Assembly (NCBI GenBank): GCA_905221615.1
Contig: CAJNDT010000581.1
Location: 27,501-91,500, forward strand
Origin: Symbiodinium sp. CCMP2592
Lineage: Eukaryota; Sar; Dinophyceae; Suessiales; Symbiodiniaceae
Direction: 5' to 3'
Length of the DNA: 64,000 nt
Shown here: one piece after another, positions 7,514 through 63,612 of the stretch
Numbering within the stretch: position 1 is the stretch's first letter
How the letters are laid out: the number at the start of each line of letters is the position of its first letter
The notes under the pieces: generated by a model
Told to the model about the DNA's origin: nothing
What the model saw: only the letters and a program-made list of their open reading frames with translations
Database searches by the model: none
Position numbers and translations under genes: made by a program

Positions 7514-7518
7514 GATGT
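7514..7518. other. target-site duplication, left copy (GATGT)
   Basis: GATGT lies directly outside the 3' LTR and is repeated directly outside the 5' LTR at 15,963-15,967. Five-base duplications are usual for Copia-type integrases. Confidence 0.85.
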
Positions 7519-7784
7519 TCTTGGTTATGAACCAGGTTGGGAGACGGCGTAGCGGTAACGATACTGAAATGTGATGGAACAGGACTCGAAAGATTTCTTC
7601 TTATCTGCATCGGAACATCGTCAAGACTGTTGTAATCGCTCGCCATCCCGGGGCCTCTAGGCTCATCCAAATCCGAACCTCAAAACAAGACCCCATCACC
7701 TTTCGCACATCTTGAGCCATCGATGTTGCGTGTCATCCTCTGCGCAGGGCCATGCACGCCTGCACAACACATGGCACACCTGCA
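7519..7784 (-). repeat. 3' LTR (266 bp)
   Basis: Direct repeat of 15,697-15,962 at an offset of 8,178. On the element's strand it begins TGCAGG and ends CCAAGA, so only the 5' end has the canonical TG; the far end lacks CA. The boundary is fixed by the repeat limits and the GATGT duplication. Confidence 0.93.
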
Positions 7785-7796
7785 CTCCTCCTCGCC
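7785..7796 (-). other. polypurine tract of the retrotransposon
   Basis: On the element's strand the bases just before the 3' LTR read GGCGAGGAGGAG, directly abutting TGCAGG. Position and composition fit the plus-strand primer site. It is short for a polypurine tract. Confidence 0.6.
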
Positions 7797-7946
7797 GAAT
7801 CTTCGCTCAGCGTGGATTGGGCGCACTTCGGGTGTGCCCAGCAAGAACATGCACAAATCTGAAGTTGGACTATTCCTTCGACCTCAGATGATAGATAATT
7901 ATGGCTCGGCACCAACCCATATCCAGGACCAGTGATTTGAGCACCT

Positions 7947-10900
7947 TCATACAACATTGAGCTTCTCTCTTGAGCTTTCCAGCTTGACTCGCGAAAGAGT
8001 CTTCGTCAATCCATCGGCCGGAATCAAATCTCCACTCATATGCAGCATTGGGATGCCATCATTCTTGAGGTGGTCTCTCAAGTAAGAACATCTCATACCA
8101 AAATGGCGCGTGCGAGTGGGCTGCACATACTCCGACCCCTTGGTCAGATTACTTACACAAGCCGAATTGTCCCCGTACAGCTCCGTGTCAACTCCTCTTT
8201 GCAAGAACTTGTCCAAGAACAGCTTCACTTGCATTCCCAGCTGATACGCCGTCGCCGACGCTTCAACCTCAGCTTCAAAAGCCGAATACGCCGTAAGGGA
8301 TTGGCGTTGAGTGCGGTAGGCGATGACATACCCGCCAAACTTTACCACCACACCCGTCCTTGATCGCGATGCCCCCGGAGCTAGCGATGCATCACCGAAG
8401 ATTGCGAGCTTTGCATCCTGAAGTTCGCCGCCGGCCTTGAAGAAGAGCACCTTATCCCTAGTCCCGGCTATGTACCTCCAGACTTGTGTAGCCAACTTGT
8501 ACGTCTTTCTCGGGTCCACCGTACTCATACATGACAAAGCCCCCACCGTTGCAAGCAGATCCGGTCTTGTCCTGAGCCCCAACCAGAAAAGAGAACCAAT
8601 CTCCGACTGAGCTCGATGCAAATCGGCACCATACGCATCATCACGAGGTGCCGGTTCCGCTTGTCCTTCCGCCACCTCTGGGAGATTAGCAGCTCCTCTG
8701 ACCGTTGTCCAGCCGCGCCGCTCCAACTCAGTATCTACCCAGTGGTGCTGATGCAGCGCAACACCCCTTTCAGTGCGTCTGAAAACCATTCCCAGAAACT
8801 GCAACTCTTGCCGGACTGGAACTTGCTTGTCACCCACCTGGACCTTTTCACCAATCTTCAACTCATCACTTGGCAAACACCCTTGAATCTTAATCTGCCA
8901 AATCTTCAACAGCACTTCTGCCAAAGCCTGACACAAAGCCACCGGTCCCACGATCAAGCCGTCATCAACGTACATGTCGAACACGCCGCAAAAGGACTGT
9001 TGCTCTCCCTGCTTTCTGATGGCCCACACACCGGACGAGATAGGATCAAGAAAATAGGTCACACCACTTGCATCCTCAAACGTCTTTCCATCCAACTCCT
9101 CATTCCGGCACAACTCCCAAAGCTTAGGTCCTTTACGCAATCCATACAACAATCGACGAAGCCTCCAGACCTTAGAAGGCTGCACCAATCCTTCTCTGGA
9201 TAGGACCTTTGGGGGCCTGACAAAAGTGGTGTCGTTGTCCATCTTCGCATTCAAAAATGCAGCTGTCACGTCAAGGACCAGTCCAGTCCAGCTCGGGTGA
9301 CTGGCAAGGCAAGCAGCGCTCCATCGGATATGTTCGATGGCCGGATTCGCACTGGCATTATCTGGATCATGACCAATCGTATTCTGCTCATAGTTCCCAC
9401 ACACCACAATCCGCGCTTTTGCCCTCCAAGTACTCAAATGATCGGTGGGATCGACTTCCACATCGCCCTCAAGAGGCTTTTTGGTCAGCACCACCTTGGA
9501 CGGTAACACCTTTGCTCCTGGTGGGATGTCGGCCTCATCCCACTCGTCGTAGATCTCCTTCGCTTGAAGCGTTTCCAGCTCCGGCCTTAAACCCTCATTC
9601 ACCCACTTCAGCTTCTCATCCGCCGGTGTTCGAGGGTCAGATAAGATCCTCGCATCAATCGTGTCGGTCACCAGCTGGGCAACCTTGACCTCCGCTCTGT
9701 TCATCTCTTGCTCAACCTCGTAAGGCAGAATCTTGTAGCGATCGACCTTGTCATCCGGCTTTGCCACCTTCTTGTTCCGAACGGCAGCTGCGAAGACCAA
9801 TGGCTCCTCCTCAGCGTGAGTATCCTCACAAGCCGAATCGATCACAACCAACTCCGGAACCTCAGCCTCAGGTCCTAATTCCTCCGGCACAGTGTCATGG
9901 TCATGCATCAGCAAACCATGTCCGAACATGCCGAACAATTGCAGAGCCTCTTCCGGCGTACGGTCCCAACTCCTTTGCTTGATCACCCTTTGAAGGTCCT
10001 CAGGGTCCACCGCCGGGCCTTCTAGCCGTTCCTCGACTGTTAGCAAGCCCTCTGGCGCATCCTGGCTCCAGACGACTCGGCCGTCACTGGCCACCCAGAC
10101 TCTCCGATCTCCCTCCGGATCCACTGAAGTTTTCCAGCGAACAATCGGTTTATCCAGCAGAACCGGCAATCTCGCCCGTTTGAGCTTCAGAACCCCACCT
10201 TCAAGAATCAAAACCCAGGCTCCATTTACACATGAAGTGCAGTGACCCACAAACACCCCATGCGATGCTCTCTCCTCGAAGTGATCTGCTCCTGGTCGCT
10301 GAAATGCCACGTGATCCCCCATTCTAGGTGTCCCTTTCGGTAGCGTCAGGTCCAGAGCACGCAGTCGTGACAGGAATGCTGCACTCTGAATGGCATACGA
10401 CCAAAAGGTGGGGCTAAGACCAGAATGCAACAGATCTCGAATGGTTGCTTGCTTAAGCGCTTGCACTCCTCTCTCAACCCTCCCATTTGACTGCGGCTGA
10501 TAAGGCACCGACTGGGTATGGAAGACCCCATGCCTCTGCTGAAGCTCCGCGAAAAGAGCAGCTTCAAATTCCTTTCCACAATCAGTATGCACCCGGAAAC
10601 ATGGTGGCACCTGCAACGAAGCAAGCTGAGCCATCACATACGCAGCTGCATCAGCTACGTCCTTTGCTGTTTTAGTCCTCGTTGGAACTGCATAGTACAG
10701 GTTCTTTCCCGTTGGCAGTCTATACACACCAATAACAGCATACTTCATCTTGTCAGCTGACTCGCAGTGAGGTCCGGAAACATCTAGCGACAGATTGGCA
10801 TATGTTTTCCCAGCCTCGTGAATCTGTCTATGCGGCCTGGATGCACCCCTTGCGCGGATGCACTTCTCACACTGCGGATCGTAGCATCCCTGCTTGCACT

Positions 10901-13900
10901 TCTTCATCAACTCTCGCAGCGCAGCTTCATACGACTCTAACCCGAACGCATCAAGTTCCCCTGGCCGCGTTAGCTCCACACCTTCCGGAGGAACTGCCGG
11001 TCCTTCAGAGGCCATGAACCCTCGCAGCTGACAACCCTCATCATCATCATCGGGGCAACGCGCGCTACTCGCGCCTAGACCCTGAATTCCTAAACCAACC
11101 CCGCTAGCGTCCTGGCAACCTCGTTCACCATGCGGCCGGCCCTGAACTGCACCATCATCCGAAATGCCCTGACCCTGATTGTTAGGGACCTCTTGGATGT
11201 TGTGACTTCTGCTCTCACTCACTGCTTCTAGCCTGCTGCTGCCGCGGGTGATGTTGCCTTTGTCTCTGTCACTCACTGCTTCTAGCCTGCTGCTGCCGTG
11301 GGTGATGTTGTCTGTGTCTCTGTCACTCACTGCTTCTAGCCTGCTGCTGCCGTGGGTGCTGCTGTTGCTCACTGTGTATGCTTTGCTGCCGCACCATCCA
11401 CTGCTTCCGCTGCTGACGCTCGGCTTCGAGCTCATCCTCTCATCCCAAAAACCAAACGCCTCCAACTTCAACAATAGATCGCTGGAAAGATTCTTGTGGC
11501 CCCTCGGAGTATATGCTACAGCAATCGCCCTAGTTCCATGGAACGGCTCTGTCCCATGAAGTCTGACTGCACCATTGAAGCGGACACTGCAGTGTGCAAC
11601 GTCATGCAATCTGCCAGCCTTCACGTTGCCGCTGTCATCCACCTCTCGTAGAACATCGTTGTGCTGTTCTCCTGGCAGACCTTCTATCCAGAGGCGTCCA
11701 CCCTGGAACTTGGTGATGCCGATGACCGCTGACTCCCTCTCCAAGCTATTCCTGTCTTTGTGCGGTTTGTAGACTACATTGATTGACACTGTGATGGACA
11801 GGAACTCCAAGCCCGGATTGTTCTGACGCACCATCTTCGTCAGCAACTTCGTCAACCAAGGATGTCGACATGTCTCAGCAGTCAGTCCGAGTACACCTCC
11901 ATGAACAAACAGCCCGAACACCCACACAGGAATCTTCTGGCCGTCACTTCCTGCAATGATCTTCTCACGGTCTGTTCTACGCTCAACTAGAGAGGCCAAC
12001 TGGATTGCCTCCCAAACCTCCTTGAACGACACCGTGCTCTGTTCACAAAGGTGCTGCGCATACTTCTCTCCGGCATCTTCCACCTGAACAGGTGCCGCTA
12101 AGCTACTCTCCTCCTCAAACCGTGTTTGCAATGCCTCTGATACTTCTGGATAGCTCAGAATTTGCACTTGCATCCCATCCACTGACGCTGCTCTCAAGAC
12201 AGTTCCCATGCCCTTGTACTTCCAAGCCTGTGCCAAGAGCTTCCTGATCGGACGAAAGTCGTTCCAAGTTATGTATGGCAACCCATTCTCTTCGTAGCAG
12301 TCAATGGTTACAGTGCCAGAGTCACTAGGGTATGTGATGCGAGGGCCTGAGGCATCCCAAACAAATGAGCCGCTAACGCCTCTGAGGCGCCTTACGCTCA
12401 GTATCCAGTCACTGTCAGGCTCCTGTCCGAGGATCAACTCGCCATCACGCGATCTAAAAGCTTCGACCACATCTCCGGAGGCTACAGCTACCTGCGTTCT
12501 TTTACATCGAGTCAACTGCAAACCCTCCCTAAATGGCCGAATGACTTCGTTGGCTCCAGAGTCAATCAGAACTCTGGGGAGTCCGCTGCCTCCGAAACCC
12601 TTGTGAACTGAAGCACCTACGCACTTCGCCTGGTCAGCGACATAAAACCTACCCTCATCTTCTGAAGAATCACTCCCCCTAGATGTTCGTCTCGTTGGCG
12701 GTGCCTTTGGGACAACTCTGCTACTGCGGACCCCAAGCAATCCACTCAAAGGTTCAAGCGACGACGATTGTGCACTCGAAGGTGGCATTCCCGGAGACAT
12801 AGGAATCGGTTCAGACACCCGTTCAGACTGACCTGGGTAACCCGGTGGCCTAGGAGCCTGTGGAGCCTCTCTTTGCACTCCGGATGATGAAGCGGGTGTT
12901 GCTGATGGGTTGATAGCCCTTCGAAGCCTTTCCCTAGCATCCCGGAGCTCCCATGAACCCACTACTGGCGGTATGCTACTCTCAGTCAACACCAGCATCT
13001 GCTCCCTACCGGAATCAATGTCAATCAAGTGAGTCATCACAACCGGTCTCAAAACCCCGTCAGCATACATACACAACCTCTGCAAGGCTTCAATGATATA
13101 CTGACCCTCTCCTATCTCAATGTTAGTCGCCGGAAGCTCGAAATCAATCTCTGACAAAGCCCACCAAACCCCAAGCGCAATCAAGGTTGGACCGTTCACA
13201 CGCTCGAAAGGGGCAATGGCATGCGTGATCACATCGTGCCCGGGACTCCAGACAGCATACTCAACAGGATCTAGCACAAGATACCAAAGGGGAGCCCTGT
13301 TGGGAGCTTGCTCAGCCCTCTCACGTACAATATCTTCTAGCTCTTCCAGCTGTGAACTACCATTGGACTGATTCTCAAGTGCCTCGCCTGTTGAATCACT
13401 AGATAAAGCCTGTCCAACTTCGGAGAGCTCTGACCCTTGGTCCGAATCGGATGGCTCAGACCTGCCACCCACTTCTCGGGCAGCATACACCATACTCTTC
13501 AAGCCTACACCCAAAAGCCCTGGGACAACAGCTGCCTTGGCTTCTGCTTTCGGCTTTGGCTTCGGGGCAGGCTTCGGATTAGGCTTAGGCTTGGGATTTG
13601 GTTCAGGTTTGCTCGGGGGTTCAGGTTTCTGGGCACCCTTGTCGTTGCCCTTGCCACCCTGTTTGCCATCGGCACTCTTCCCCTTACTTTTCCCAGATCC
13701 CTTATCCTTACCTTTACCCTTGGCCTGATTCGCCTCCCCATGGAAGAATGGGCAATCTTTGCCCCTCCAACATCCCCCTGGCTTAGCAAAGAAATGACAC
13801 ATCTGCCGACCCTTGCCCTTGGTTGCTGCCTCTGCTGCAACTACGATTTCACTACTCTGGGCCGCGCGTGCGTCCCGCACTTCTTGATCGGAGGCTAGCC

Positions 13901-15848
13901 TCCGACACTCGGTTTCGAGTAACAAAGCGTACCTTTCAAGCCCAGCCGACGAGGGAATAATCAAATCTGGTTGCATACGAAGTAAGTTGATCTTCATCCC
14001 CATCTGTTGGTTCCTTTTCTCTAGCGCTCGCACTAGGGAGTCTAACGCTGAAATGCCTTCGTTAGGCGCTTGCTCCGGCAACCCGAGATTGTGCGCCCGT
14101 TGGCGTGCAAGTTTCCATCGCCTCAAAGTTGTAAGAGCGCCCTTGAAATCCTGAGCCGTAGGGAGTTGTCTCAGGTATCTTTGGATTGATTCTAGCTCTT
14201 CCTTGCCTCCTGGAGCATATCTCTCATGTAAGCTTTCGAACATGAGCACACAGCGCACGTTCTGCGATGAAGACGTCTCCACCACAGGCTGGCGAACGGC
14301 AGTGGGAAGCTTCTGCAACAGCGTCAGCGATAGCCGCGTCTCCATTTCGGCGTCCGCACTAGCAATAGCCGGTAGCTGATCCTCAATCCCTGACAAACGC
14401 TTCTTTTCATATCTCAACCTCCCTGCTTCATAGGTCCTGTCAAAGAACTCGGCGAACTGCTGATGGATCGCTGCCAGCACAGTCCGCATCTCCACACGCC
14501 ACTGGTGGACAACCATGCCGATCTCCCACGGTTCCCCTCCTGCTGATAGGTCAAGCTTCGGGGCATCCTTCAACAGCTTAAACGCCGCCTGGTGGATTTT
14601 GACCTCAGGTGCCGAGTTAGCCTGCTTCATGTTCTCAGGCAACGGTGGTGGAGGAGCGTTCAGCCCCAAGCCGGGTGGAAAATTGCGCCCGACTGCATCC
14701 CACTGCTCGGCAACACCTGCACCCCACCAATCATCCTCGTAGTTCTCATTGCTATCCCCTGGGTTTTCTGGAGATAGAACATGATGGATCACAGGGGCTC
14801 CGGTGCGGTCCACATCGTGACCAGCATTTCCCAACCGAATTCCTTCTTCGGGATCCACCTCTAACTCTCGCTGGATAGTCGCATCCTGAATTCGCAGCTT
14901 TTCTACCAGCATTTCCAACCTCGCGACCCGATTTACCACCCATCTAGTGGTTTTCAAATCATCCTCATACTGGTCTCTCGCCTTCGCTGCCTCAGCCTGA
15001 GCCCTATCTAAGCTCCGCTTCAGCTGCTCAATCTGCTCTTCGCTGTTTGCTTGCTTCACCGTTGCCTGCTCCAATGCTGCCGCCTGCTTCTCAAGCATGG
15101 TAACAAGGAGCTGCTTCTGCTCTCCGGCCGACTGGCCGACAAGACCCTCAAGATCTCCACGCAATCCAGCCTGTGCCGCCAGAAAGGTTTCAAGTCTCTC
15201 CTCCAAGGAAGTGGTTTTCTGCCAAGCCTCGGCCCATTTGGCTTTCATGCCCGCTTCAAACTCTGCAAGAAGGCTCATCGTCCGCTCATGCTCCGAGGAT
15301 AAAAAGGCAAGTCTACTTTGATGATGCGCATCTCTCTGTTGTAGGGCTTGCAAAGTCTGCTGCAAACCCCGTATGGTTTCTCTATCTTCCATGGTGCCAC
15401 TTGCGGCCCTTTGGACACATTGTCCAAGCAGCTCGGAACGTCTCACCAGCTCATCGGCCAGTGCCTGCATGCCCTGTCGGATGTGATCAAGATCCGCCAG
15501 TTGTCCCAGCTCTAGATTCTGCAGCGCTTGCAGTCGCAACACCAGGTCTGCAGGAAGTACCACTTGGGATAAACTCCTGAAGACGACTGATCCGTCCGCT
15601 GCAATGTCTGCTGTAGATGCTGTAGCTGTTGTTTGCTGTCCTTGCTGCTGAGTGTTTGCGGAGATTTGCCCAAGGGGAGCCCTTGGGCTCATAACCTCTT
15701 GGTTATGAACCAGGTTGGGAGACGGCGTAGCGGTAACGATACTGAAATGTGATGGAACAGGACTCGAAAGATTTCTTCTTATCTGCATCGGAACATCGTC
15801 AAGACTGTTGTAATCGCTCGCCATCCCGGGGCCTCTAGGCTCATCCAA
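7947..15848 (-). CDS. Copia Gag-Pol polyprotein with inserted oxygenase-like domain, 2,633 aa
   Basis: It encodes the proteins for reverse transcription and integration of the element. Order by residue: coiled-coil Gag about 90-335; Gag core about 420-650; CCCH zinc finger about 684-703 (CHFFAKPGGCWRGKDCPFFH); Lys/Gly/Pro-rich basic stretch about 705-775; aspartic protease LIDSGAN (D1096); 2-oxoglutarate/Fe(II) oxygenase signature H1363-x-D1365, H1431 and R1440; three copies of an 18-residue HGSSRLEAVSD repeat about 1,493-1,545; Cys-rich pre-integrase CYDPQCEKC; integrase D1689, D1756, E1792 (35 residues between the last two); RT LVLDVTAAF (D2193) and YVDD (D2295, D2296); RNase H D2486 and YGDNS (D2560). 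No frameshift separates Gag from Pol. The first 50 codons lie in the 5' LTR; Met53, just after the primer site, is an alternative start. Confidence 0.95.
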   Translation of the reverse strand: MDEPRGPGMASDYNSLDDVPMQIRRNLSSPVPSHFSIVTATPSPNLVHNQEVMSPRAPLGQISANTQQQGQQTTATASTADIAADGSVVFRSLSQVVLPADLVLRLQALQNLELGQLADLDHIRQGMQALADELVRRSELLGQCVQRAASGTMEDRETIRGLQQTLQALQQRDAHHQSRLAFLSSEHERTMSLLAEFEAGMKAKWAEAWQKTTSLEERLETFLAAQAGLRGDLEGLVGQSAGEQKQLLVTMLEKQAAALEQATVKQANSEEQIEQLKRSLDRAQAEAAKARDQYEDDLKTTRWVVNRVARLEMLVEKLRIQDATIQRELEVDPEEGIRLGNAGHDVDRTGAPVIHHVLSPENPGDSNENYEDDWWGAGVAEQWDAVGRNFPPGLGLNAPPPPLPENMKQANSAPEVKIHQAAFKLLKDAPKLDLSAGGEPWEIGMVVHQWRVEMRTVLAAIHQQFAEFFDRTYEAGRLRYEKKRLSGIEDQLPAIASADAEMETRLSLTLLQKLPTAVRQPVVETSSSQNVRCVLMFESLHERYAPGGKEELESIQRYLRQLPTAQDFKGALTTLRRWKLARQRAHNLGLPEQAPNEGISALDSLVRALEKRNQQMGMKINLLRMQPDLIIPSSAGLERYALLLETECRRLASDQEVRDARAAQSSEIVVAAEAATKGKGRQMCHFFAKPGGCWRGKDCPFFHGEANQAKGKGKDKGSGKSKGKSADGKQGGKGNDKGAQKPEPPSKPEPNPKPKPNPKPAPKPKPKAEAKAAVVPGLLGVGLKSMVYAAREVGGRSEPSDSDQGSELSEVGQALSSDSTGEALENQSNGSSQLEELEDIVRERAEQAPNRAPLWYLVLDPVEYAVWSPGHDVITHAIAPFERVNGPTLIALGVWWALSEIDFELPATNIEIGEGQYIIEALQRLCMYADGVLRPVVMTHLIDIDSGREQMLVLTESSIPPVVGSWELRDARERLRRAINPSATPASSSGVQREAPQAPRPPGYPGQSERVSEPIPMSPGMPPSSAQSSSLEPLSGLLGVRSSRVVPKAPPTRRTSRGSDSSEDEGRFYVADQAKCVGASVHKGFGGSGLPRVLIDSGANEVIRPFREGLQLTRCKRTQVAVASGDVVEAFRSRDGELILGQEPDSDWILSVRRLRGVSGSFVWDASGPRITYPSDSGTVTIDCYEENGLPYITWNDFRPIRKLLAQAWKYKGMGTVLRAASVDGMQVQILSYPEVSEALQTRFEEESSLAAPVQVEDAGEKYAQHLCEQSTVSFKEVWEAIQLASLVERRTDREKIIAGSDGQKIPVWVFGLFVHGGVLGLTAETCRHPWLTKLLTKMVRQNNPGLEFLSITVSINVVYKPHKDRNSLERESAVIGITKFQGGRLWIEGLPGEQHNDVLREVDDSGNVKAGRLHDVAHCSVRFNGAVRLHGTEPFHGTRAIAVAYTPRGHKNLSSDLLLKLEAFGFWDERMSSKPSVSSGSSGWCGSKAYTVSNSSTHGSSRLEAVSDRDTDNITHGSSRLEAVSDRDKGNITRGSSRLEAVSESRSHNIQEVPNNQGQGISDDGAVQGRPHGERGCQDASGVGLGIQGLGASSARCPDDDDEGCQLRGFMASEGPAVPPEGVELTRPGELDAFGLESYEAALRELMKKCKQGCYDPQCEKCIRARGASRPHRQIHEAGKTYANLSLDVSGPHCESADKMKYAVIGVYRLPTGKNLYYAVPTRTKTAKDVADAAAYVMAQLASLQVPPCFRVHTDCGKEFEAALFAELQQRHGVFHTQSVPYQPQSNGRVERGVQALKQATIRDLLHSGLSPTFWSYAIQSAAFLSRLRALDLTLPKGTPRMGDHVAFQRPGADHFEERASHGVFVGHCTSCVNGAWVLILEGGVLKLKRARLPVLLDKPIVRWKTSVDPEGDRRVWVASDGRVVWSQDAPEGLLTVEERLEGPAVDPEDLQRVIKQRSWDRTPEEALQLFGMFGHGLLMHDHDTVPEELGPEAEVPELVVIDSACEDTHAEEEPLVFAAAVRNKKVAKPDDKVDRYKILPYEVEQEMNRAEVKVAQLVTDTIDARILSDPRTPADEKLKWVNEGLRPELETLQAKEIYDEWDEADIPPGAKVLPSKVVLTKKPLEGDVEVDPTDHLSTWRAKARIVVCGNYEQNTIGHDPDNASANPAIEHIRWSAACLASHPSWTGLVLDVTAAFLNAKMDNDTTFVRPPKVLSREGLVQPSKVWRLRRLLYGLRKGPKLWELCRNEELDGKTFEDASGVTYFLDPISSGVWAIRKQGEQQSFCGVFDMYVDDGLIVGPVALCQALAEVLLKIWQIKIQGCLPSDELKIGEKVQVGDKQVPVRQELQFLGMVFRRTERGVALHQHHWVDTELERRGWTTVRGAANLPEVAEGQAEPAPRDDAYGADLHRAQSEIGSLFWLGLRTRPDLLATVGALSCMSTVDPRKTYKLATQVWRYIAGTRDKVLFFKAGGELQDAKLAIFGDASLAPGASRSRTGVVVKFGGYVIAYRTQRQSLTAYSAFEAEVEASATAYQLGMQVKLFLDKFLQRGVDTELYGDNSACVSNLTKGSEYVQPTRTRHFGMRCSYLRDHLKNDGIPMLHMSGDLIPADGLTKTLSRVKLESSREKLNVV
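11213..11375 (-). repeat. 54-bp in-frame tandem repeat in Gag-Pol
   Basis: Three copies of a 54-bp unit encode HGSSRLEAVSDRD-type 18-residue repeats. They sit in the linker between the oxygenase-like segment and the integrase. The reading frame is kept. Confidence 0.85.
15681..15696 (-). other. primer-binding site, initiator tRNA-Met anticodon arm
   Basis: Directly after the 5' LTR the element's strand reads GGTTATGAGCCCAAGG. It is complementary to a TGGGCTCATAACC-type anticodon stem-loop of initiator tRNA-Met. Drosophila Copia and yeast Ty5 prime from the same internal region with a half-tRNA. The site lies inside the open Gag frame. Confidence 0.7.
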
Positions 15849-15962
15849 ATCCGAACCTCAAAACAAGACCCCATCACCTTTCGCACATCTTGAGCCATCG
15901 ATGTTGCGTGTCATCCTCTGCGCAGGGCCATGCACGCCTGCACAACACATGGCACACCTGCA
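15697..15962 (-). repeat. 5' LTR (266 bp)
   Basis: Appears identical to the 3' LTR at 7,519-7,784. It contains the first ATG of the Gag-Pol frame at 15,848, 114 bp from its start. Promoter and R/U5 limits cannot be read directly. Confidence 0.93.
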
Positions 15963-15967
15963 GATGT
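15963..15967. other. target-site duplication, right copy (GATGT)
   Basis: Matches 7,514-7,518 across the insertion. Confidence 0.85.
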
Positions 15968-19548: not shown

Positions 19549-19702
19549 GTTTAGAATATGCACCCGAACCCTGCGCCTTAAACCCTAAGCCCTAAACCCT
19601 TGTAAAGCCACTAGGTTTAGAATATGCACCCGAACCCTACGCCTTAAACCCTAAGCCCTAAACCCTTGTAAAGCCACTAGGTTTAGAATATGCACCCGAA
19701 CC
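19549..19702 (+). repeat. 66-bp tandem repeat with telomere-like CCCTAAACCC
   Basis: Two full 66-bp copies (19,549-19,614 and 19,615-19,680) and a partial third. Each contains CCTTAAACCCTAAGCCCTAAACCC, interrupted here as CCTTAAACCC and CCCTAAACCC words. CCCTAAA is the complement of the plant-type telomere unit TTTAGGG, also reported from dinoflagellates. An interstitial copy is likely; it is not a telomere end. Confidence 0.8.
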
Positions 19703-50038: not shown

Positions 50039-53000
50039 GGAAAAAACAAGTTCTCGATGCGCCCACAGCTGCAGCCAGGATGCCATCAACCAACAAGAAT
50101 ACGGAGGATGCAGGCTGGTTCTTGCTGTCACAACTCGCTGCCAAGGGAACAAGGCAGAATCTTCCGGCCTTGAGCTCCTGAGTTCCAGAGAGGAGCCTCT
50201 GGTTGCGCCGGGGCCTCAGAAGCTGAGAATTTCTTACCTGGCTCCTAAAACCCAATGTTTTTGGGCTCCAGGCACGTCTGTGATCTCCTGCTGGCTCAGC
50301 TCTCAGCTAAACATCGCAAACTCATTACTTGCCCCAGCCCGCGACTCCTCCAAGGCGTTCATGACATCTCCCATGCACCAGCCTGGAGAGCATCGTCATC
50401 ACGCGTTATCGGGTTTCGCCTGGAGCGGCTTCACAGTCGGCCCCCGCCCTGCTGGCCATCGACCACCCAGGAGTCTCCACTCAGGCCATACACGGTCACC
50501 TGCGCGTACAGGACAGACACTCATTGATCATCCGCACCCGGCTTGCTTGCGGCCTTCACGGTCATGGTCTGAAGCTTGAGAGGGAGGCCGCGGGCTGTGC
50601 CGGGGAATGCCAGGATGCTACCAGAACCAAGCACCCTCCGATGAAACCGAAACGGCCAACGGTCAGCCAGTTCAAAGAGAAGCTGAGAATACATGCTGGC
50701 ATTGTGCAGTGCGAGAAGGAATGAGTTAAGATCTGCGAATGGAAACGTGGATGCGCGGGATGAGATCAAGCCCACATCCAGTCCAGGAGCCATGCAGTTC
50801 ACTTTCAAAGCTGTTCTGAAGCATTAAGCTCGCTCTTTTTCCAAGAAATGTCGGGCAACGGCAACTGACATCAGGCCACGGACGATGAAACTCCATCCGC
50901 AATGGCGGACCGCCCACCTTGCCTTCTTTACATATCTAACCTGGTGCTTGCCCAAACATGGCAATTGACCCGACTAGCACGATTCAATTTCTTCGCACGT
51001 GCAAACACTATGAAGCCAGCTTGCCAGAGCATCTCTGTGATGGGCGAGGCCACAACGACGTGTACCCAGAAAGTCCGTCGTTTTCGAGCAAAGGAGGTCC
51101 AACAGGGACTGTCGGACAGTCCCTGTTGGACTCCTTTGCTCGAAGACGACGGACTTTCTGGGTACCGCGCTACGAAGACGCTGCTAGGAGAGCTGGACAT
51201 TGCCAGCTTCGCCAAGCTAAAGGCTAGGCTTGCGAACTGGAGCTGCAAGATCTCCGTGAGGTGGCTTGTTGAACCACTGCTTCAGGCATTTCTGGAGGGG
51301 TGGGCATTCTGCCCAACGTCTTCGTTCCTTCGTGATGCACAGTCTTGCTTCGACCCTACACCTTGAGGCATGGGACCGAGAACGGCAGCCCCAGTCCGCA
51401 ACTAGAAACAACTCCATTGCAGGCATCAAGCAGTTACCATGAGCCTCACACCTGCTATCAGATGCTATCAGCAGGCTACATACATCTCCTCATCAGATTA
51501 TCTCGTAGTGCCTCACTTCATCGAGCGCTGACCTCGCATAGCTCTGGTACGGGAACCAAAGCTGCACGTTGTTTGCTACGGTGTTGGCAGCCCTCAATTC
51601 AAGCCTCTTTCGTCTGAGAGCTGGGCGCCCGCAGCAGCAGAGCTCGGTGATCTGAACAGCATCGACATCTACTTTGCTTTGTAAGATGAAAATGTGCCTG
51701 TGCCGAAAATGCTCAGGCTGAAGCCCATGCCCACCATCCCCATTCCTGCCCGCAGTGCATGTGCTCCTGGCCGGCAAAGGTTAAAAGAAGCTGAAGGCCT
51801 TAAATGAATACAAAGCTTGTAAAAACACCAAACAATCAGTTTGTAAACTCGGGAACACAAAAACTAAGCACCTCACACGACCTGCAAATCACTCCTCGCT
51901 CGCCGCGCTATCGGCTGCCTCGGCTGCCCTTGTCGCCTCCCGGACCGCGGAGCTTGGCAGGCTGAGCTGTAGTAACATGACATCCATTCCATACACTTCC
52001 ACCCAAATCGTGCGATTTCTCTTTCGCTCAAGACCAAAAACGGAACTGAAAAAGCAGGGCCGGGATGGTGTGAATTCCTCGCACTAGCTCAGCGACAGCC
52101 GGGGCATCCTAATTAATGGTTTCGTCTCCACCCGTCCCAGCATTGCTATGTCTCCCTTCTCCTATACACGCAGACTACACGGCAACACTTCCCAACCCCA
52201 CGGACTGCTACACCGAAAACCTCAACCCCCTTTGTACTTTACGTTGACTACACAGCAACGCAGCTCTACCCCATGAAGACTACAAAGGCAGACTCTGCAA
52301 CCCTACATAGCCATGTGTAACACACAGGTTCAAACGCTCATGACCAGAGGACTTCCACCGAACTTCCACGTGTGACTGCTTGCCCGTGAATGGGATTCAG
52401 GATTCAACACATCAATCAAGACAGCGGCCAGGACATTGTCGAATCAAGAACTCATTTTCTGCAACAGGTTCAACGTGTACAAGTACCAGCAGTTCAACAA
52501 GACGTACGATGGTTCGACCCTCCCTTGATTCCAAGACGGAGCTTTGGCCAAGATCCCACAGTGCGCATTCCATCCGACTTGATTGTTGTACCTCAATAAG
52601 ATAAGCAGTACATTCACGATCGAAATCGGGGAATCGCAATGGCAACTGGCCGGATCTTTCCAAGATGAAACTCAGGGAGACAAGCTGCAACAAGGGTGTT
52701 GAACCTGAATCCACAGCTGTGCTTTCGACTTTAAATTGGAATGAACCCTAGTTGGGCGAAACCACGTCGTGTGAGAAGAACAACTTCATCGGACCCGCTG
52801 ATGCGGAGCTCGCCTTTAGACACTCCAGGTATGCTCGCGCGAGGTCCCGTGTTGCCTGCTCGCTTCGAGGATGTCAGCTCATTCTCAAAGCATGGCTGTT
52901 TGAGTTGCTGGACGCCTGGGACACGGTTCCGCCTGACTTGGCCTTGATTAGGACAGCACTGACATGAAGACATGAACATGAACCATCAAAAAATGCACTC

Positions 53001-54437
53001 TGGGCGTCAGCATTGAAACTTCAATCGAAACTAAGGGATGCGCCAGCTTTTCGGCCCTGTCATCTCGGAACGCATGGAGCTCGTCACGGGGAAGGTCCAA
53101 CAACTTCTGATACTTTTCATGGTGCCTCCAGTCAACGCGACTTTCAATGCTGAGAGTTGCAAGGATCCAACACCGGCTACATGCCTAATTCACATACTGT
53201 GCAACCATCCAGCCTCCGCAAGTGTTCTGGAAGGAGCATCGCCTCATCCATTTGGGCTCTAGGATTGAGTTGCAGAGGCAAGCAAGTCCACGTGTCAGAA
53301 AGCGCTTGAATCGGCCCAGGGACGGCAAATGAGAGCAAAGTTGGCAAGGACTGCACACAACTACCTCGGCACGAAAGTGGCTCAGTGTTCAGGCACTGAC
53401 ATGATTGCAACCGGTCGCCATCCCTTTCATCCCAGCTCTATGCGAAGCACTTCAGAATCCTTGGGGGTCTTTCTTCGCTAGTATGTCCCACTGCGGAAAG
53501 AGGTCCGACAAACCCCCAAACACTTCTTGCATGAAATTGCCCCATCGGAGCATTCAGAACGACACTTCTTGCATGAAATTGCGCCATCGGAGCATTCATG
53601 AACGGCTCAAAACATTTATACCTGCAGCATGAGCTCGGCGGCAAGAGCCTGCATTGGAAACGCAGTCGAATCACAAGTCACGATGGCATCGATGCTGATT
53701 TGGGAATCTGACGTTCTCTAATTCAAGATCGTCGTGCATGCAGTTATCGGCCTCGCGGACAATCATACTCTGACTTTGACCACGGAACGTGTGGCGTGGC
53801 GCCGAGCGCCCTGCGCATTCGCGACCACCTTCAAGCACAACTGCTACAATTACAACGGTACCACAAGCTATTCATGTTGCCTGCATGCGAACCCCGTGAT
53901 GCCAAGAGAGTTGGAAGCACTTCCGCCTCCTTGACATGCCACAGTTTCATGTTAAAAGATTGCATCCGTCTGACATGGTCGCTTCCACTCAGTGCACCTG
54001 GCGCGGAATCCCATCGCGCCATTCCTAACTGTCTCCACGAACTTGCGGCAAGGCTTCTTCAGAAAATGTCCTGCCTCTTCGAGGGTACGTGCATCCGGGA
54101 TAAACCTGCCACTTTTAATCAACAACGCTGATGGGGCAGCAGTGCGGAGGCCAGCTGCAGGGCGGGGCACCGGAAGTTGCGCACTGCGCCTCCCGCGCAA
54201 TGCAACACCATTCTTAAGCCATCGTTCGACCTGGGTGACCACCGCAACGCAGACAGCAGGTTGACAGCTCATGGCAAAAACCATGTGCCCTGCCAGCCAA
54301 TGGTGCGAACGACAGCGAAGATGGTTTTCACCACAGCCAACCTCAGATCGAGCAGAAAACGATGCCAGCACTTGCAAGGCTTCACTCACTTCCGACCGAG
54401 GAGCGTGAAAAAGTCGTAGAAAGTCACACTGTCTCCG
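50039..54437. repeat. 4.4-kb tandem duplication, unit 1
   Basis: Matches 54,438-58,803 over its whole length with mostly single-base differences and a few indels (offset drifts between about 4,348 and 4,399 bp). No gene recognised inside. The longest frame (minus, 54,551-53,952) is interrupted by a one-base indel in the second unit, which argues against coding. It contains an internal 38-bp direct repeat (CTTCTTGCATGAAATTGC at about 53,524 and 53,563) and a hairpin not present in unit 2. Confidence 0.93.
51062..51165. repeat. 104-bp near-perfect palindrome in unit 1 only
   Basis: The left arm starts GTACCCAGAAAGTCCGTCGT and the right arm is its inverted copy ending ACGGACTTTCTGGGTAC. The arms are about 51 bp, differ by one substitution and one indel, and meet at ACTGTCGGACAGT. 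Unit 2 has only one, diverged arm at the matching site (about 55,445-55,520). Confidence 0.93.
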
Positions 54438-57400
54438 GAAAAAAACGAGTTCTCGATGCGCCCACAGCTGCAGCCAGGATGCCATCAACCAACAAGAATA
54501 CGGAGGATGCAGGCTGGTTCTTGCTGTCACAACTCGCTGCCGAGGGAACAAGGCAGAATCTTCCGGCCTTGAGTTCCTGAGTTCCAGAGAGGAGCCTCTG
54601 GTTGCGCCGGGGCCTCAGAAGATCTCAGAATCTCACCCTGCGGGCCCCAAAAACCAATGTTTTTGGGCTCCCGGCGCCTGTGATCTCCTGCGGGCTCAGC
54701 TCTCAGCTAAACATCGCAACCTAACTACCCCAGCCCGTGACTCCTCCAAGGCGTTCATGACATCTCCCATGCACCAGCCTGGAAAGCATCGTCATCACGC
54801 GTTATCGGGTTTCGCGTGGAGCGGCTTGACAGTCGGCCCCGCCCTGCTGGCCATCGACCACCCAGGAGTCTCCACTCAGGCCATACACGGTCACCTGCAC
54901 CCACAGGACATGCACTCATTGATCATCCACACCCGGCTTGCTTGCGGCCTTCACGGTCATGGTCTGAAGCTTGAGAGGGAGGCCGCGGGCTGTGCCGGGG
55001 AATGCCAGGATGCTACCAGAACCAAGCACCCGCCGATGAAACCGAAACGGCCAACGGTCAGCCAGTTCAAAGAGAAGCTGAGAATACGTGCTGGCATCGT
55101 GCAGTGCAAGAAGGAACTGAGTTAAGATCTGCGAATGGAAACGAGGCTTCGCGGGATGAGATCAAGCCCACATCCAGTCCAGGAACCATGCAGTTCACTT
55201 TCAGAGCTGACATTAAGCTCGCTCTTTTTCCAAGAAATGTCAGGCAACTAACATCATGCCACGGACGATGAAACTCCATCCGCAACGGCGGACCGCCCAC
55301 CTTGCCTTATTTACCTATCTAACCTCGTGCTTGCCCAAACATGGCGTTTGACCCGATTAGCACGATTACATTTCTTCGCATGTGCAAACACTATGAAGCC
55401 AGCTTGCCAGAGCATCTCTGTGATGGGCGAGGCCAAAACGACGTGGGAGCCGTGCAATGTTTGGCGGACAGTCCCTGTTTCGACCTCCTTTGCTCGAAAA
55501 ACGACGAACTTTCTGGTTACCCCGCTACTAGGACGCTGCTAGGGGAGCTGGACATTGCCAGCTTCGCCAAGCTAGAGGCTAGGCTTGCGAACTGGAGCTG
55601 CAAGATCTCCGTGAGGTGGCTTGTTGAACCACTGCTTCAGGCATCTCTGGAGGTGTGGGCATTCTGCCCAACGTCTTCGTTCCTTCGTGATGCACAGTCT
55701 TGCTTCGACCCTACACCTTGAGGCATGGGACCGAGAACGGCAGCCCCAGTTCGCAACTAGAAACAACTCCATTGCAGGCATCAAGCAGTTACCATGAGCC
55801 TCACACCTGCTATCAGATGCTATCAGCAGGCTACATACATCTCCTCATCAGATTATCTCGTAGTGCCTCACTTCATCGAGCGCTGACCTCGCATAGCTCT
55901 GGTACGGGAACCAAAGCTGCACGGTGTTTGCTACGGTGTTGGCAGCCCTCAATTCAAGCCTCTTTCGTCTGAGAGCTGGGCGCCCGCAGCAGCAGAGCTC
56001 GGTGATCTGAACAGCATCGACATCTACTTTGCTTTGTAAGATGAAAATGTGCCTGTGCCGAAAATGCTCAGGCTGAAGCCCATGCCCACCATCCCCATTC
56101 CTGCCCGCAGTGCATGTGCTCCTGGCCGGCAAAGGTTAAAAGAAGCTGAAGGCCTTAAATGAATACAAAGCTTGTAAAAACACCAAACAATCAGTTTGTA
56201 AACTCGGGAACACAAAAACTAAGCACCTCACACGACCTGCAAATCACTCCTCGCTCGCCGCGCTATCGGCTGCCTCGGCTGCCCTTGTCGCCTCCCGGAC
56301 CGCGGAGCTTGGCAGGCTGAGCTGTAGTAACATGACATCCATTCCATACACTTCCACCCAAATCGTGCGATTTCTCTTTCGCTCAAGACCAAAAACGGAA
56401 CTGAAAAAGCAGGGCCGGGATGGTGTGAATTCCTCGCACTAGCTCAGCGACAGCCGGGGCATCCTAATTAATGGTTTCGTCTCCACCCGTCCCAGCATTG
56501 CTATGTCTCCCTTCTCCTATACACGCAGACTACACGGCAACACTTCCCAACCCCACGGACTGCTACACCGAAAACCTCAACCCCCTTTGTACTTTACGTT
56601 GACTACACAGCAACGCAGCTCTACCCCATGAAGACTACAAAGGCAGACTCTGCAACCCTACTGTGTAACACACAGGTTCAGACGCTCATGACCAGAGGAC
56701 TTCCACCGAACTTCCACCTGTGACTGCTTGCCCGTGAATGGGATTCAGGATTCAACACATCAATCAAGACAGCGGCCAGGACATTGTCGAATCAAGAACT
56801 CATTTTCTGCAACAGGTTCAACGTGTACAAGTACCAGCAGTTCAACAAGACGTACGATGGTTCGACCCTCCCTTGATTCCAAGACTGGGGAGCTTTGGCC
56901 AAGATCCCACAGTGCGCATTCCATCCGACTTGATTGTTGTACCTCAATAAGATAAGCCGTACATTCAGGATCGAAATCGGGGAATCGCAATGGCAACTGG
57001 CCGGATCTTTCCAAGATGAAACTCAGGGAGACAAGCTGCAACAAGGGTGTTGAACCTGAATCCACAGCTGTGCTTTCGACTTTAAATTGGAATGAACCCT
57101 AGTTGGGCGAAACCACGTCGTGTGAGAAGAACAACTTCATCGGACCCGCTGATGCGGAGCTCGCCTTTAGACACTCCAGGTATGCTCGCGCGAGGTCCCG
57201 TGTTGCCTGCTCGCTTCGAGGATGTCAGCTCATTCTCAAAGCATGGCTGTTTGAGTTGCTGGACGCCTGGGACACGGTTCCGCCTGACTTGGCCTTGATT
57301 AGGACAGCACTGACATGAAGACATGAACATGAACCATCAAACAATGCACTCTGGGCGTCAGCATTGAAACTTCAATCGAAACTAAGGGATGCGCCAGCTT

Positions 57401-58803
57401 TTCGGCCCTGTCATCTCGGAACGCTTGGAGCTCGTCACGGGGAAGGTCCAACAACTTCTGATACTTTTCATGGTGCCTCCAGTCAACGCGACTTTCAATG
57501 CTGAGAGTTGCAAGGATCCAACACCGGCTACATGCCTAATTCACATACTGTGCAACCATCCAGCCTCCGCAAGTGTTCTGGAAGGAGCATCGCAGCATCC
57601 ATTTGGGCTCTAGGATTGAGTTGCAGAGGCAAGCAAGTCCACGTGTCAGAAAGCGCTTGAATCGGCCCAGGGACGGCAAATGAGAGCAAAGTTGGCAAGG
57701 ACTGCACACAACTACCTCGGCACGAAAGTGGCTCAGTGTTCAGGCACTGACATGATTGCAACCGGTCGCCATCCCTTTCATCCCAGCTCTATGCGAAGCA
57801 CTTCAGAATCCTTGGGGGCGCCTCACATCTGACTGTCTTTCTTCGCTAGTATGTCCCACTGCGGAAAGAGGTCGACAAACCCCCAAACACTTCTTGCATG
57901 AAATTGCCCCATCGGAGCATTCAGAACGACACTTCTTGCATGAAATTGCGCCATCGGAGCATTCATGAACGGCTCAAAACATTTCTACCTGCAGCATGAG
58001 CTCGGCGGCAAGAGCCTGCATTGGAAACGCAGTCGAATCACAAGTCACGATGGCATCGATGCTGATTTGGGAATCTGACGTTCTCTAATTCAAGATCGTC
58101 GTGCATGCAGTTATCGGCCTCGCGGACAATCATACTCTGACTTTGACCACGGAACGTGTGGCGTGGCGCCGAGCGCCCTGCGCATTCGCGACCACCTTCA
58201 AGCACAACTGCTACAATTACAACGGTACCACAAGCTATTCATGTTGCCTGCATGCGAACCCCGTGATGCCAAGAGAGTTGGAAGCACTTCCGCCTCCTTG
58301 ACATGCCACAGTTTCATGTTAAAAGATTGCATCCGTCTGACATGGTCGCTTCCACTCAGTGCACCTGGCCCGGAATCCCATCGCGCCATTCCTAACTGTC
58401 TCCACGAACTTGCGGCAAGGCTTCTTCAGAAAATGTCCTGCCTCTTCGAGGGTACGTGCATCCGGGATAAACCTGCCACTTTTAATCAACAACGCTGATG
58501 GGGCAGCAGTGCGGAGGCCAGCTGCAGGGCGGGGCACCGGAAATTGCGCACTGCGCCTCCCGCGCAATGCAACACCATTCTTAAGCCATCGTTCGACCTG
58601 GGTGACCACCGCAACGCAGACAGCAGGTTGACAGCTCATGGCAAAACCATGTGCCCTGCCAGCCAACGGTGCGAACGACAGCGAAGATGGTTTTCACCAC
58701 AGCCAACCTCAGATCGAGCAGAAAACGATGCCAGCACTTGCAAGGCTTCACTCACTTCCCACCGAGGAGCGTGAAAAAGTCGTAGAAAGTCACACTGTCT
58801 CCG
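54438..58803. repeat. 4.4-kb tandem duplication, unit 2
   Basis: Directly abuts unit 1. Junction words are CTGTCTCCG before AAAAAAACGAG at 54,437/54,438, and CTGTCTCCG again at the end (58,803). It lacks the palindrome of unit 1 and carries an extra approximately 18 bp near 57,820. Confidence 0.93.
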
Positions 58804-61180
58804 CAAGACACACCCAGAAGCCGGCCTAACGCAATCTCACTGCAAGACCTCCACTCATCCCATTGCAGTGCCGGCAAGTCCTCCACGGACTTTCTCTGCG
58901 ACGAACGCAGGCTGGATAATTTTGCTATCGCGTGCCTGGCGTCCGTTTTTGACAGCATACCAACTTCTAGGAATGCCTCGGGTCCAATAAGCAGTCCTGG
59001 ACAACTTTGATGCCATGCAAGCCATCGTCCATCAGAACAGCATAGCAGCTACCTGCTGAGATGATGCAATATCATTAATATGATGCAATCACACTTGAAA
59101 CAACGCGCGCCATCCCAAGACTCTGCCGCGCGCGGTGCCTGGAAGCTGTGGCATGTTGCACGGCAGCGCCTACAAGATCCAGAAATGGCAGCCTCGGCGG
59201 TGAGGTACACCAAACAGTCTGCGTAGCCCATGACAGCCTCACAGTAAATGTCACAAGAGAACTGAACTCCGAGGCATGCAGCACGCTTTCTCGTTTGCTG
59301 AGATTCCGACGCAACCAGCATCTGCTGCGACAGATGTCAGGCATGTCGAGAAAGTCAGGCTTGCCTTCATGCGGGATGCAAACAAAGCTGTGAAGCAGAT
59401 GTCAGATGGCTTTGCGGTTGTACCGTGATTCATGTGTGCGACCGTGCCGATGGCATCCCAAAAGAGCTCCTATAAAGCAAAGGATACGTTCGCTAATGCT
59501 ACTTTGTCGTGGTCGCTCGCCATCTAACAACGCAGGCACCTTGAGAAGTTGGCTTCGACGGTGCCACAGCTTCACGTCCCCAGCCTGTTGGTGAGCTGCA
59601 GTTCACAAACGATGCTCACCACGTTGACCAGTGCCTTGCCACCTGTCAAAACCAGCGTATTGTCCGGATGGGCAGCAGCCTTAGCAAGTGTTGGAGTCAG
59701 ACGCTGCGGCTGTGACAAACATGCACCAAGCCCATCTGGCCGAAGCGCACAACACAAGCCAGCATGATGCAAGACGCAGATGCACCTGGCAAAAACTTGT
59801 GCAATGATGACACAATGGACGGCAAACGCCAAGTTTGGAGTTCAACCAAACTGAAGCGGTATTTGGTTTCCGTGCTGTGGGATGCTTGTTCCAAGCCGCT
59901 TACGCGAGATGCGACAATCCGAGGCCCAGCATTAACCTACGAAGCGAAAACCCTCTAGCGGAAGAGAAATCAGAAACAAACGAAAATACCCAGGCAGCCG
60001 TGAGCAACGCACCAGCTTCGTTCCAGGAGTTTGTATGGCACCAATAGAAAAAGTTATTTGATTGGACAAGCCGGAACATGTAAAAGATGATGCCGATGGT
60101 CGGCTGTTCGGATTCCACACGGGCGGCAATTGGGATGGGACTTCAAAGTCTGAAGGAGGGTAGGCGTCCTAAGTTGCGTGGGCAAACGTCCCGTGCACGC
60201 GGGCTCGATGGAAGACCGCACTGTCTGCGCAGGTGTCATACCTACAAGCCGAAGCGCCCAGGGCTTGGAGAAGGCATTTGGTGTACTCTAACTGACATAC
60301 CCCAAATATGAGAACTGAATTTTTGCGAGGGGCCCGGACAAGCAGCCAGGGCCCAAGGCTCTGCGATGGCTGCTCATTCGAGAATCAATGCTGCAACATC
60401 CACAATGCCCTGCAGGCCACTGCATCCCAGAAGCTACGCGTGCTTGCCAGCATGCTTGGGAACGTTTGACACCCAAGCTAGTCGTCACGTTCGCGCAGAC
60501 ATCGCATCGCGTTCTGCAGCGCAAGTTGGGGTAACGCACTAGCACGCATGCTTGATGTGGCCAGCCCACGCGACTGACGTGAATTCCGAGCTTGTCATGA
60601 CTGATATGAAAACGTTTCACAAAAATGGTCGCGATGATGTTCAGCGTACAACCATCGCATGCACAGCAGATTTGCACAAACACTGAAAATTGGGAAAGAC
60701 TCAAAACCGAAATGCATGAACGAAAATTTAACTGCGTGTCTGCAATAATCTTTGCGCATGTCCGGCAACAGCATGTGACCTAGCATGTCTGATGCAAGCT
60801 GATGCACTCACAATGAGAACTTCGCGAGGGTATTGTGACTGCCGCCCTTCTTCAAACGAGTCGGGGCGACTGCAAGCTTTGGTGGTGTAGGATTCGGACC
60901 TTCTCGTCCACGCACCTCGCTGGCTGCTTGCAGGATAGCGCATACTCTCCACAGCTCCACAAACGCTTACGTGATCAGGCTCGTGCCCCAAGATTACGTC
61001 CGGCGGCAACGGCGCATACCTTCGGAGCTTGGCTTTGCATTCTTGCAACACGGCCTGGAACATCACTACGAAGGGCACTCAACGCACTGAACACCAGGGA
61101 CGACAAGCTCGTGGGCATTTCCTGTACTGCCAGAAAGTCTGTTTGGGTCTACGGCATGTGGCAGGCCATATTCTGCCTGC
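58804..61180. other. no confident gene
   Basis: Several protein-like minus-strand frames lie here (for example 59,832-59,572 with AKAAAHPDNTLVLTGGKALV, and 61,078-60,728 with MFQAVLQECKAKLRRY). They lie downstream of the WD40 exon and could be further exons of that gene. I see no clear repeat motif to confirm this. Confidence 0.35.
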
Positions 61181-62869: not shown

Positions 62870-63612
62870 TTGCAATCACCTGTTTCCGAAACTAACAGCG
62901 GGCCTGAAAGGATCATTCCGTGGCGCGTTTCAACTGTTTCCGCAACTAACAGCGGTCCCGAAGGAGCTATGAAAAAGACTATTTCGAGAGACACCATCAA
63001 CTGTTTCCGCAACTGACAGCGGTCCCGAGATGTCCCGAGAGAGCTATGAAACAGATCATTCCGTGGGGCATTTGAACTGTTTCCGCAACTAACAGCTGTC
63101 CAGAAAGAGCTATGAAACCGATCATTCCATGGGGCACTTGGACAGTTTCCGCAACTAACAGCGGTCCCGAGAGAGCTATGAAACCGATCATTCCGTAGGG
63201 CACTTGGACAGTTTCCGCAACTAACAGCGGTCGCGAGAGAGCTATGAAACCGATCATTCCGTGGGGCACTTGGACAGTTTCCGCAACTAACAGAGGTCCC
63301 GAGAGAGCTGAAACCGGTATAAACCGATCATTCTGTGGGGCACTGGGACTGTTTCCCCAACTAACAGCGGTCCCGAGAAAGCTATGAAACAGATCATTCC
63401 GTGGGGCATTTGAACTGTTTCCGCAACCAACAGCGGTCCAGAAAGAGCTATGAAACAGATCATTCAGTGAGTAGTTTCATTTCAGCGGTCGGTAAGGCAT
63501 TTGAACTGTTTCCGCATCTAACAGCAATCCCGACCGATCTATGAGACAGATCATTCAGTGAGGCCTTTCACCTGTTTCCGCAACCAACAGCGGTCCCCCA
63601 GGAGCTATGGAA
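62870..63612. repeat. 66-bp minisatellite, about 11 copies
   Basis: Each unit contains CTGTTTCCGCAACTAACAGC, then a GGTCCCGAGAGAGCTATGAA-like part, then GATCATTCCGTGGGGCA. Copies start near 62,880, 62,935, 63,001, 63,077, 63,143, 63,209, 63,276, 63,348, 63,415, 63,505 and 63,571. The most regular spacing is 66 bp, a multiple of three, so one minus-strand frame stays open over several units (repeat ALSGPLLVAETVQVPHGM). Confidence 0.93.

Follow-up and report, generated by a model that had tools for sequence, protein, structure and literature searches.

A probable TET/JBP-like Fe(II)/2-oxoglutarate dioxygenase domain in the Gag-Pol polyprotein of a recently active Symbiodinium Copia retrotransposon

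Enzymes of the TET/JBP type oxidise DNA pyrimidines at their methyl group. In the present work, a predicted domain resembling them was analysed in the polyprotein of a Copia retrotransposon of Symbiodinium sp. CCMP2592, located in a 64,000-nucleotide stretch of contig CAJNDT010000581.1 (positions 27,501 to 91,500 of the forward strand), hereafter called the window. The closest described systems are considered first. TET/JBP dioxygenases are carried by fungal DNA transposons (Kyakuja, Zisupton, hAT, Helitron and others; Kojima 2025, PMC12730594), where they have been proposed to aid escape from methylation-based silencing. The fungal systems and the present one have in common an oxygenase of TET/JBP type or likeness, with HxD and a distal His, that is found in mobile elements and moves among element types, whereas the fungal carriers are DNA transposons (PMC12730594) and the domain is here fused into dinoflagellate retrotransposon polyproteins, with sub-threshold scores against the Tet_JBP profile. 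In orchids, Ty3/Gypsy elements contain an AlkB open reading frame (ORF) coding for an N6-methyladenosine (m6A) demethylase active in vitro (PMC9289625). This is likewise a 2-oxoglutarate (2OG)-Fe(II) dioxygenase within a long terminal repeat (LTR) retrotransposon; however, the orchid enzyme belongs to the AlkB family and is encoded by an additional ORF in one 25-kb Gypsy lineage, whereas the domain described here is TET/JBP-like, lies within the polyprotein and occurs in Copia and DIRS-like elements. In the angiosperm screen of the same source, atypical domains were found in Gypsy elements only and none in Copia (PMC9289625).

In Symbiodinium itself, the methyltransferase-bearing retrotransposons SymbioLINE-Dnmt and SymbioDIRS-Dnmt3 have been described, and methylation of the cDNA was suggested by the authors for the DIRS type (de Mendoza 2018, PMC5890265). 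A parallel with DNA methyltransferases in dinoflagellate retrotransposons had been drawn in an earlier note on this DNA. These elements share with the present family captured enzymes that modify, or would modify, DNA, as well as purifying selection and a shuffled DIRS domain order. They differ in that the captured enzymes are methyltransferases, and the main text of that paper uses none of the words oxygenase, dioxygenase and TET. Copia is said there to lack any DNMT domain (PMC5890265), at odds with another paper that mentions DNMT3 for Copia LTR as well as DIRS elements (PMC12344493). Kinetoplastid JBP1/JBP2 and animal TET resemble the present domain in predicted fold and ligand set, many members showing HxDxxN as in TET2, but they are host genes, and the window's domain alone is unrecognised by the Tet_JBP profile. 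Transposon-borne 2OG oxygenases are already known; no report of a TET/JBP-type oxygenase in a retrotransposon was recognised in searches of openly licensed PMC papers, which is not proof of absence.

The segment under study was considered, with moderate confidence, to be an intact-looking TET/JBP-like Fe(II)/2OG dioxygenase that forms part of Gag-Pol in a dinoflagellate Copia element with recent activity, where it may oxidise 5-methylpyrimidines. The features of the element are as follows, residues being counted from the TTG start of the polyprotein.

7519..15962, minus strand: complete Copia LTR retrotransposon, 8444 bp, with an identical LTR pair, a target duplication and a single open frame
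15697..15962, minus strand: 5' LTR, 266 bp, same sequence as the 3' LTR
7519..7784, minus strand: 3' LTR, 266 bp
7514..7518, no strand: left target-site duplication GATGT, 5 bp
15963..15967, no strand: right target-site duplication GATGT, 5 bp
15685..15696, minus strand: putative primer binding site GGTTATGAGCCC, immediately 3' of the 5' LTR
7947..15848, minus strand: Gag-Pol polyprotein ORF, 2633 aa, TTG start, RVT_2 match above the Pfam cut-off
13740..13799, minus strand: CCCH zinc finger of Gag, residues 684-703 (motif and sub-threshold zf-CCCH match)
12249..12608, minus strand: protease region, residues 1081-1200, D1096 (IDSGAN motif; maps to relatives)
11430..12074, minus strand: predicted 2OG-Fe(II) oxygenase domain, residues ~1259-1473 (AlphaFold model, homologues, fold matches)
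11760..11762, minus strand: H1363, first iron ligand (H in 22/22 distinct copies)
11754..11756, minus strand: D1365, carboxylate iron ligand (22/22 distinct copies)
11556..11558, minus strand: H1431, distal iron ligand (22/22 distinct copies; locus L005 is an exception outside that count)
11529..11531, minus strand: R1440, presumed 2OG ligand (22/22 distinct copies)
11196..11364, minus strand: coding tandem repeat, 54 bp, in frame, in the linker directly downstream of the oxygenase domain
10269..10988, minus strand: integrase region, residues 1621-1860, D1689 (sub-threshold rve match; maps in relatives)
8709..9578, minus strand: Copia reverse transcriptase (RT), residues 2091-2380, YVDD at 2293 (RVT_2, E 1.3e-14)

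The features by which Ty1/Copia elements are recognised were all found: RVT_2 (54.9 bits against a Pfam cut-off of 31.6), the order protease-integrase-RT, and LTRs with a target duplication. The polyprotein has a Gag-like region and, near its end, ADGLTK, and the Pfam scan of the polyprotein gave no protease family match. The putative primer binding site is presumably complementary to the anticodon loop of the initiator tRNA-Met. The open ORF, the identical 266-bp LTRs and the 5-bp target duplication are in agreement with the intact frame and recent insertion claimed in the earlier note. Furthermore, a second full-length copy, on contig C749, is 99.34% identical across 8444 bp and carries a different target duplication, TAACG; the two copies are thus separate insertions belonging to a single family with recent activity. 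The 54-bp linker repeat has similar wording in the proteins P0003 and P0010.

The earlier note had read a 2OG/Fe(II) oxygenase signature between the protease and the integrase, and its landmarks were found to be exact: IDSGAN starts at residue 1095 (D1096), LSLDVSG at 1686 (D1689), PHKDRN at 1362 (H1363, D1365) and LHGTEPFHGTR at 1430 (H1431, R1440), with 66 residues from D1365 to H1431 and nine from H1431 to R1440. The AlphaFold model of the domain is a double-stranded beta-helix with a predicted local distance difference test score (pLDDT) of 84.5. A comparison with solved structures revealed 111 PDB chains at E <= 0.001, and the best 50 of these 111 are nearly all 2OG oxygenases, with 8vni (mercaptosuccinate dioxygenase) and 8ag3 (vaccinia C16) as exceptions; the TM-scores of the fold matches are low (TMq 0.23-0.42). 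The best solved matches of the model are TET, AlkB and PHD2. The predicted fold and the conserved ligand set both agree with what is expected of the Fe(II)/2OG oxygenase superfamily.

The ligands were then followed through genomic copies retrieved from the 1.10-Gb assembly, in which the window lies in contig C581. None of the four varies among 22 distinct copies with a median pairwise identity of 27%, and the same holds for N1367 and W1387. This count comprises 22 rows from 21 loci, five of 27 rows having been dropped as near-copies or fragments (L010 twice, L011, L012 and the main copy of L015), and the loci were picked for long open frames, which biases them to intact copies. In the same 22 copies, synonymous codons alternate at the His, Asp, Asn and Arg positions (H1363 is CAC in 10 and CAT in 12; R1440 is written with five different Arg codons), which points to purifying selection on the residues themselves. 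In a 40-row alignment of proteins and genomic loci, H1363 is kept in 38/39, D1365 in 39/39, H1431 in 38/38 and R1440 in 39/39, counting rows in which the site is occupied by a residue, and N1367 and W1387 are each kept in 39/39; one of the 40 rows is a fragment without the core, and several are near-copies (L009-L012; L015 and L018; the window and L013). An alignment of eight domains has no variation at columns that include H, D, N, GG, W, the distal H, G, R and Y.

Several sequences were left out of the 40-row survey: P0013 and P0016, which stop before the distal His (P0016 also has S at N1367), P0015, a near-copy of P0012, P0018, whose core is frame-broken, and the short loci L001-L008, of which six of eight retain all four ligands as judged by eye. 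Five of seven further proteins have all four ligands, P0022 and P0025 having lost part of the core, and four rows of the genome search with the window's domain have a stop within the match. The ratio of nonsynonymous to synonymous substitution rates (dN/dS) is 0.10-0.17 in the domain and 0.10-0.16 in the rest of the polyprotein, over the six of 55 pairs in which the proportion of synonymous differences (pS) is below 0.65; five of the six have a saturating dS > 1 and none includes the window. The oxygenase domain is under purifying selection. Fold prediction, the survey of copies and dN/dS, all three proposed as checks in the earlier note, thereby spoke for the note's reading.

The domain is not restricted to the window's element. 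Its protein homologues include Copia polyproteins of Symbiodinium with 63-65% identity, two proteins with 37-38%, three with 29% and nine shorter ones; with P0009 as query, homologues were found in S. microadriaticum, S. necroappetens and CCMP2456. In the genome, the window's domain gave at least 150 matches, all 150 scored out of 2685 loose candidates having matched. The window's branch is one supported clade in the domain tree (17 rows, 98/96), and the order protease-oxygenase-integrase-RT is found in 12 of 12 retrieved members (L013-L022, L024, L026). Elsewhere, the oxygenase lies between integrase and RT (L028-L031), ahead of RT after a degenerate methyltransferase-like segment (L023, L025 and L027; E 8e-7, 0.012 and 1e-4), or at the N-terminus and followed by rve and RVT_2 (P0007). 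P0008 and P0009 were read by eye as DIRS-like, with RT, RNase H, oxygenase and a methyltransferase-like domain, P0008 having in addition a tyrosine-recombinase-like end; this reading has no Pfam match. Locus L033:1-7301, DIRS-like by eye, has one ORF resembling a recombinase and another resembling gag, besides a pol that combines oxygenase, methyltransferase-like domain, RT and RNase H. On the domain tree, the labels for domain position call for 7 changes against a minimum of 5, which is compatible with a few transfers or rearrangements; some labels were given by eye (the mapping does not cover L032, P0017 or, in L023, L025 and L027, the integrase). The oxygenase domain travels with transposing elements.

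Two side observations concern these loci. The Copia polyproteins of L028, L029 and L032 contain segments that look by eye like degenerate methyltransferases, with GGPPG, SPPE and GQGRG replacing PPC. Additional, diverged oxygenase ORF pieces are present at the edge of loci with domain-bearing Copia (L015:9323-9874 and L028:9484-9897, minus strand).

The assignment to the TET/JBP type comes from the relatives, and the Tet_JBP profile is linked to the window only via the family profile. L009 matches Tet_JBP (PF12851) and no other family, at E 6.2e-7 across positions 73-162 of 164; this locus was found via a genome search with PF12851 itself. It is a member of the window's family, being detected at E 1.4e-39 by a profile built from eight domains, the window's among them. 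P0012 and P0015 match Tet_JBP at E 0.0036 and 0.0034. When 23 members were compared with Pfam at E up to 10, eight matched Tet_JBP (best E 5e-7), the window's copy not being among them, and one matched 2OG-FeII_Oxy_3, the prolyl hydroxylase type (E 0.027). The genome gave four Tet_JBP matches at E <= 0.001, none above the cut-off and all copies of the L033 pol; 150 of 155 candidates were scored, in six frames and exon by exon, so that a spliced host gene could escape. Since every Tet_JBP score is below the curated cut-off, the family is called TET/JBP-like and not filed as a member. Against PDB sequences, the window's domain has no significant match, the L009 domain has TET2 on top at a non-significant E 0.3, and the 23-member profile has TET2 second (E 0.13) behind a sensor kinase, the two TET2 matches being hints at most. 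The PHROGs comparison gave nothing significant, no relative was found in the IMG/VR scan, and tblastn of the L009 domain against phages gave chance matches alone (E 7 or worse).

A number of results weigh against the TET/JBP-like reading. In sequence, no relevant Pfam family recognises the domain of the window itself, the best Tet_JBP score is 29.6 bits (a relative, in the genome search; 29.2 in a separate scan) for a curated cut-off of 34.9, and the unrelated family DUF746 matches one of the 23 members at E 4.5e-4. In structure, TET and AlkB enzymes are tied as the nearest solved folds of the window's model, and for a second predicted model Foldseek puts AlkB at the top and VIA-align a bacterial 2OG oxygenase. 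Concerning the methyltransferase-like partner, none was seen in the window's element; in the relatives its assignment rests on PPC- and ENP-type motifs, and its matches to PDB profiles (three of four DNMT2-type, E 0.85-1.4) fall below an unrelated dehydrogenase at E 0.5. The three methyltransferase-like segments likewise gave no DNA_methylase or DNMT match in Pfam. Individual copies depart from the ligand set: P0014, counted in the survey, has R in place of H1363 and is gapped where the distal His would stand, and outside the survey count L005 has Arg instead of the distal His and the frame of L006 stops ahead of it. Apart from the question of family, H.D(55-80)H(8)R was found in 271 of 2000 shuffles of the polyprotein, so that the motif alone is hardly above chance.

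These points bear on different alternatives. An AlkB-like demethylase, stripping methyl groups (m6A, N1-methyladenosine, alkyl lesions) from the element's RNA or cDNA, is possible and considerably less probable than the TET/JBP-like reading. AlkB structures are within one Z unit of TET, with ALKBH5, FTO and NMAD-1 close, but the His-to-Arg spacing in E. coli AlkB is longer than nine, which counts against this alternative. The AlkB model (2OG-FeII_Oxy_2) is also absent from the 17 Pfam families listed for the 23 members, against eight of 23 for Tet_JBP, bearing in mind that the HMMER filters discard most weak matches. The orchid Gypsy enzyme with its in vitro activity provides a published case of a working AlkB in an LTR retrotransposon (PMC9289625). 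A protein hydroxylase of the prolyl-4-hydroxylase or PHD type, acting on Gag or a host protein, was judged unlikely. PHD2 stands among the solved matches cited above, and an AlkB/TET-like enzyme, one of the possibilities raised in the earlier note, is favoured over it by Pfam and less clearly by structure. The His-Arg spacing of nine that the note had likened to HIF prolyl hydroxylases is present, but this likeness decides nothing between base oxidation and protein hydroxylation.

A non-catalytic 2OG fold, retained as a nucleic-acid-binding or structural module, would agree with the isolated ligand-lacking copies P0014 and L005; it was considered very improbable, the ligands being invariant in the 22 copies (picked, as said, for long frames) while other positions have diverged. 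A chance motif in an unrelated linker would fit the frequency of the loose motif in shuffled proteins and the lack of a significant PDB sequence match. Its probability is negligible in view of family conservation, predicted fold and purifying selection: the domain stands above chance because its ligands are conserved in diverged relatives and because of the predicted fold, and a chance motif was ruled out by conservation and fold. A dead passenger and a canonical Copia domain were both considered and rejected, on the grounds just given for the alternatives.

Other features of the window were noted beside the element. A tandem duplication with a period of ~4.36 kb occupies 50041-58806, with stretches 94-100% identical. 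A low-complexity ACC / CCACCCA tract at 1-931 probably accounts for the strong GC skew over the first 2 kb. A 66-bp repeat is present 2.3 times at 19549-19702, with telomere-like CCCTAAACCC words, and a tandem array of 66-bp units with a higher-order period of 206 bp is found at 63032-63469.

Returning to the TET/JBP-like dioxygenase, the following course of action can be proposed. The oxygenase would be translated within the polyprotein, probably released by the element's protease, and would encounter RNA and cDNA of the element either inside the particle or at the integration complex. There it would oxidise the 5-methyl group of a pyrimidine (5-methylcytosine or thymine) in the element's nucleic acid, the outcome being either the reversal of host silencing or a hydroxymethylated, host-DNA-like look for the new copy. 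By analogy with the described systems, the polyprotein-borne enzyme may thus act in cis on the element RNA, the cDNA or the new insertion. 5-Hydroxymethyluracil is abundant in dinoflagellate DNA, with an enrichment at certain repeat classes (PMC11071213), and JBP enzymes act by hydroxylating thymidine (PMC11065753); together these points make thymine or 5-methylcytosine the likeliest substrates, and our best guess is that 5-methylpyrimidines in the element's DNA are the substrate. A wider proposal, that retrotransposon TET/JBP-like oxygenases are a writer of 5-hydroxymethyluracil in dinoflagellate genomes, appears doubtful; it comes from the genome's Tet_JBP matches belonging to one retroelement family, the many copies of the oxygenase and the repeat enrichment of the modified base. 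The family, which is large, diverged and recently active, has its TET/JBP-like domain in more than one retroelement order, in a lineage known for 5-hydroxymethyluracil, and makes it possible to test directly if selfish elements alter base chemistry in their own cDNA or in the host genome.
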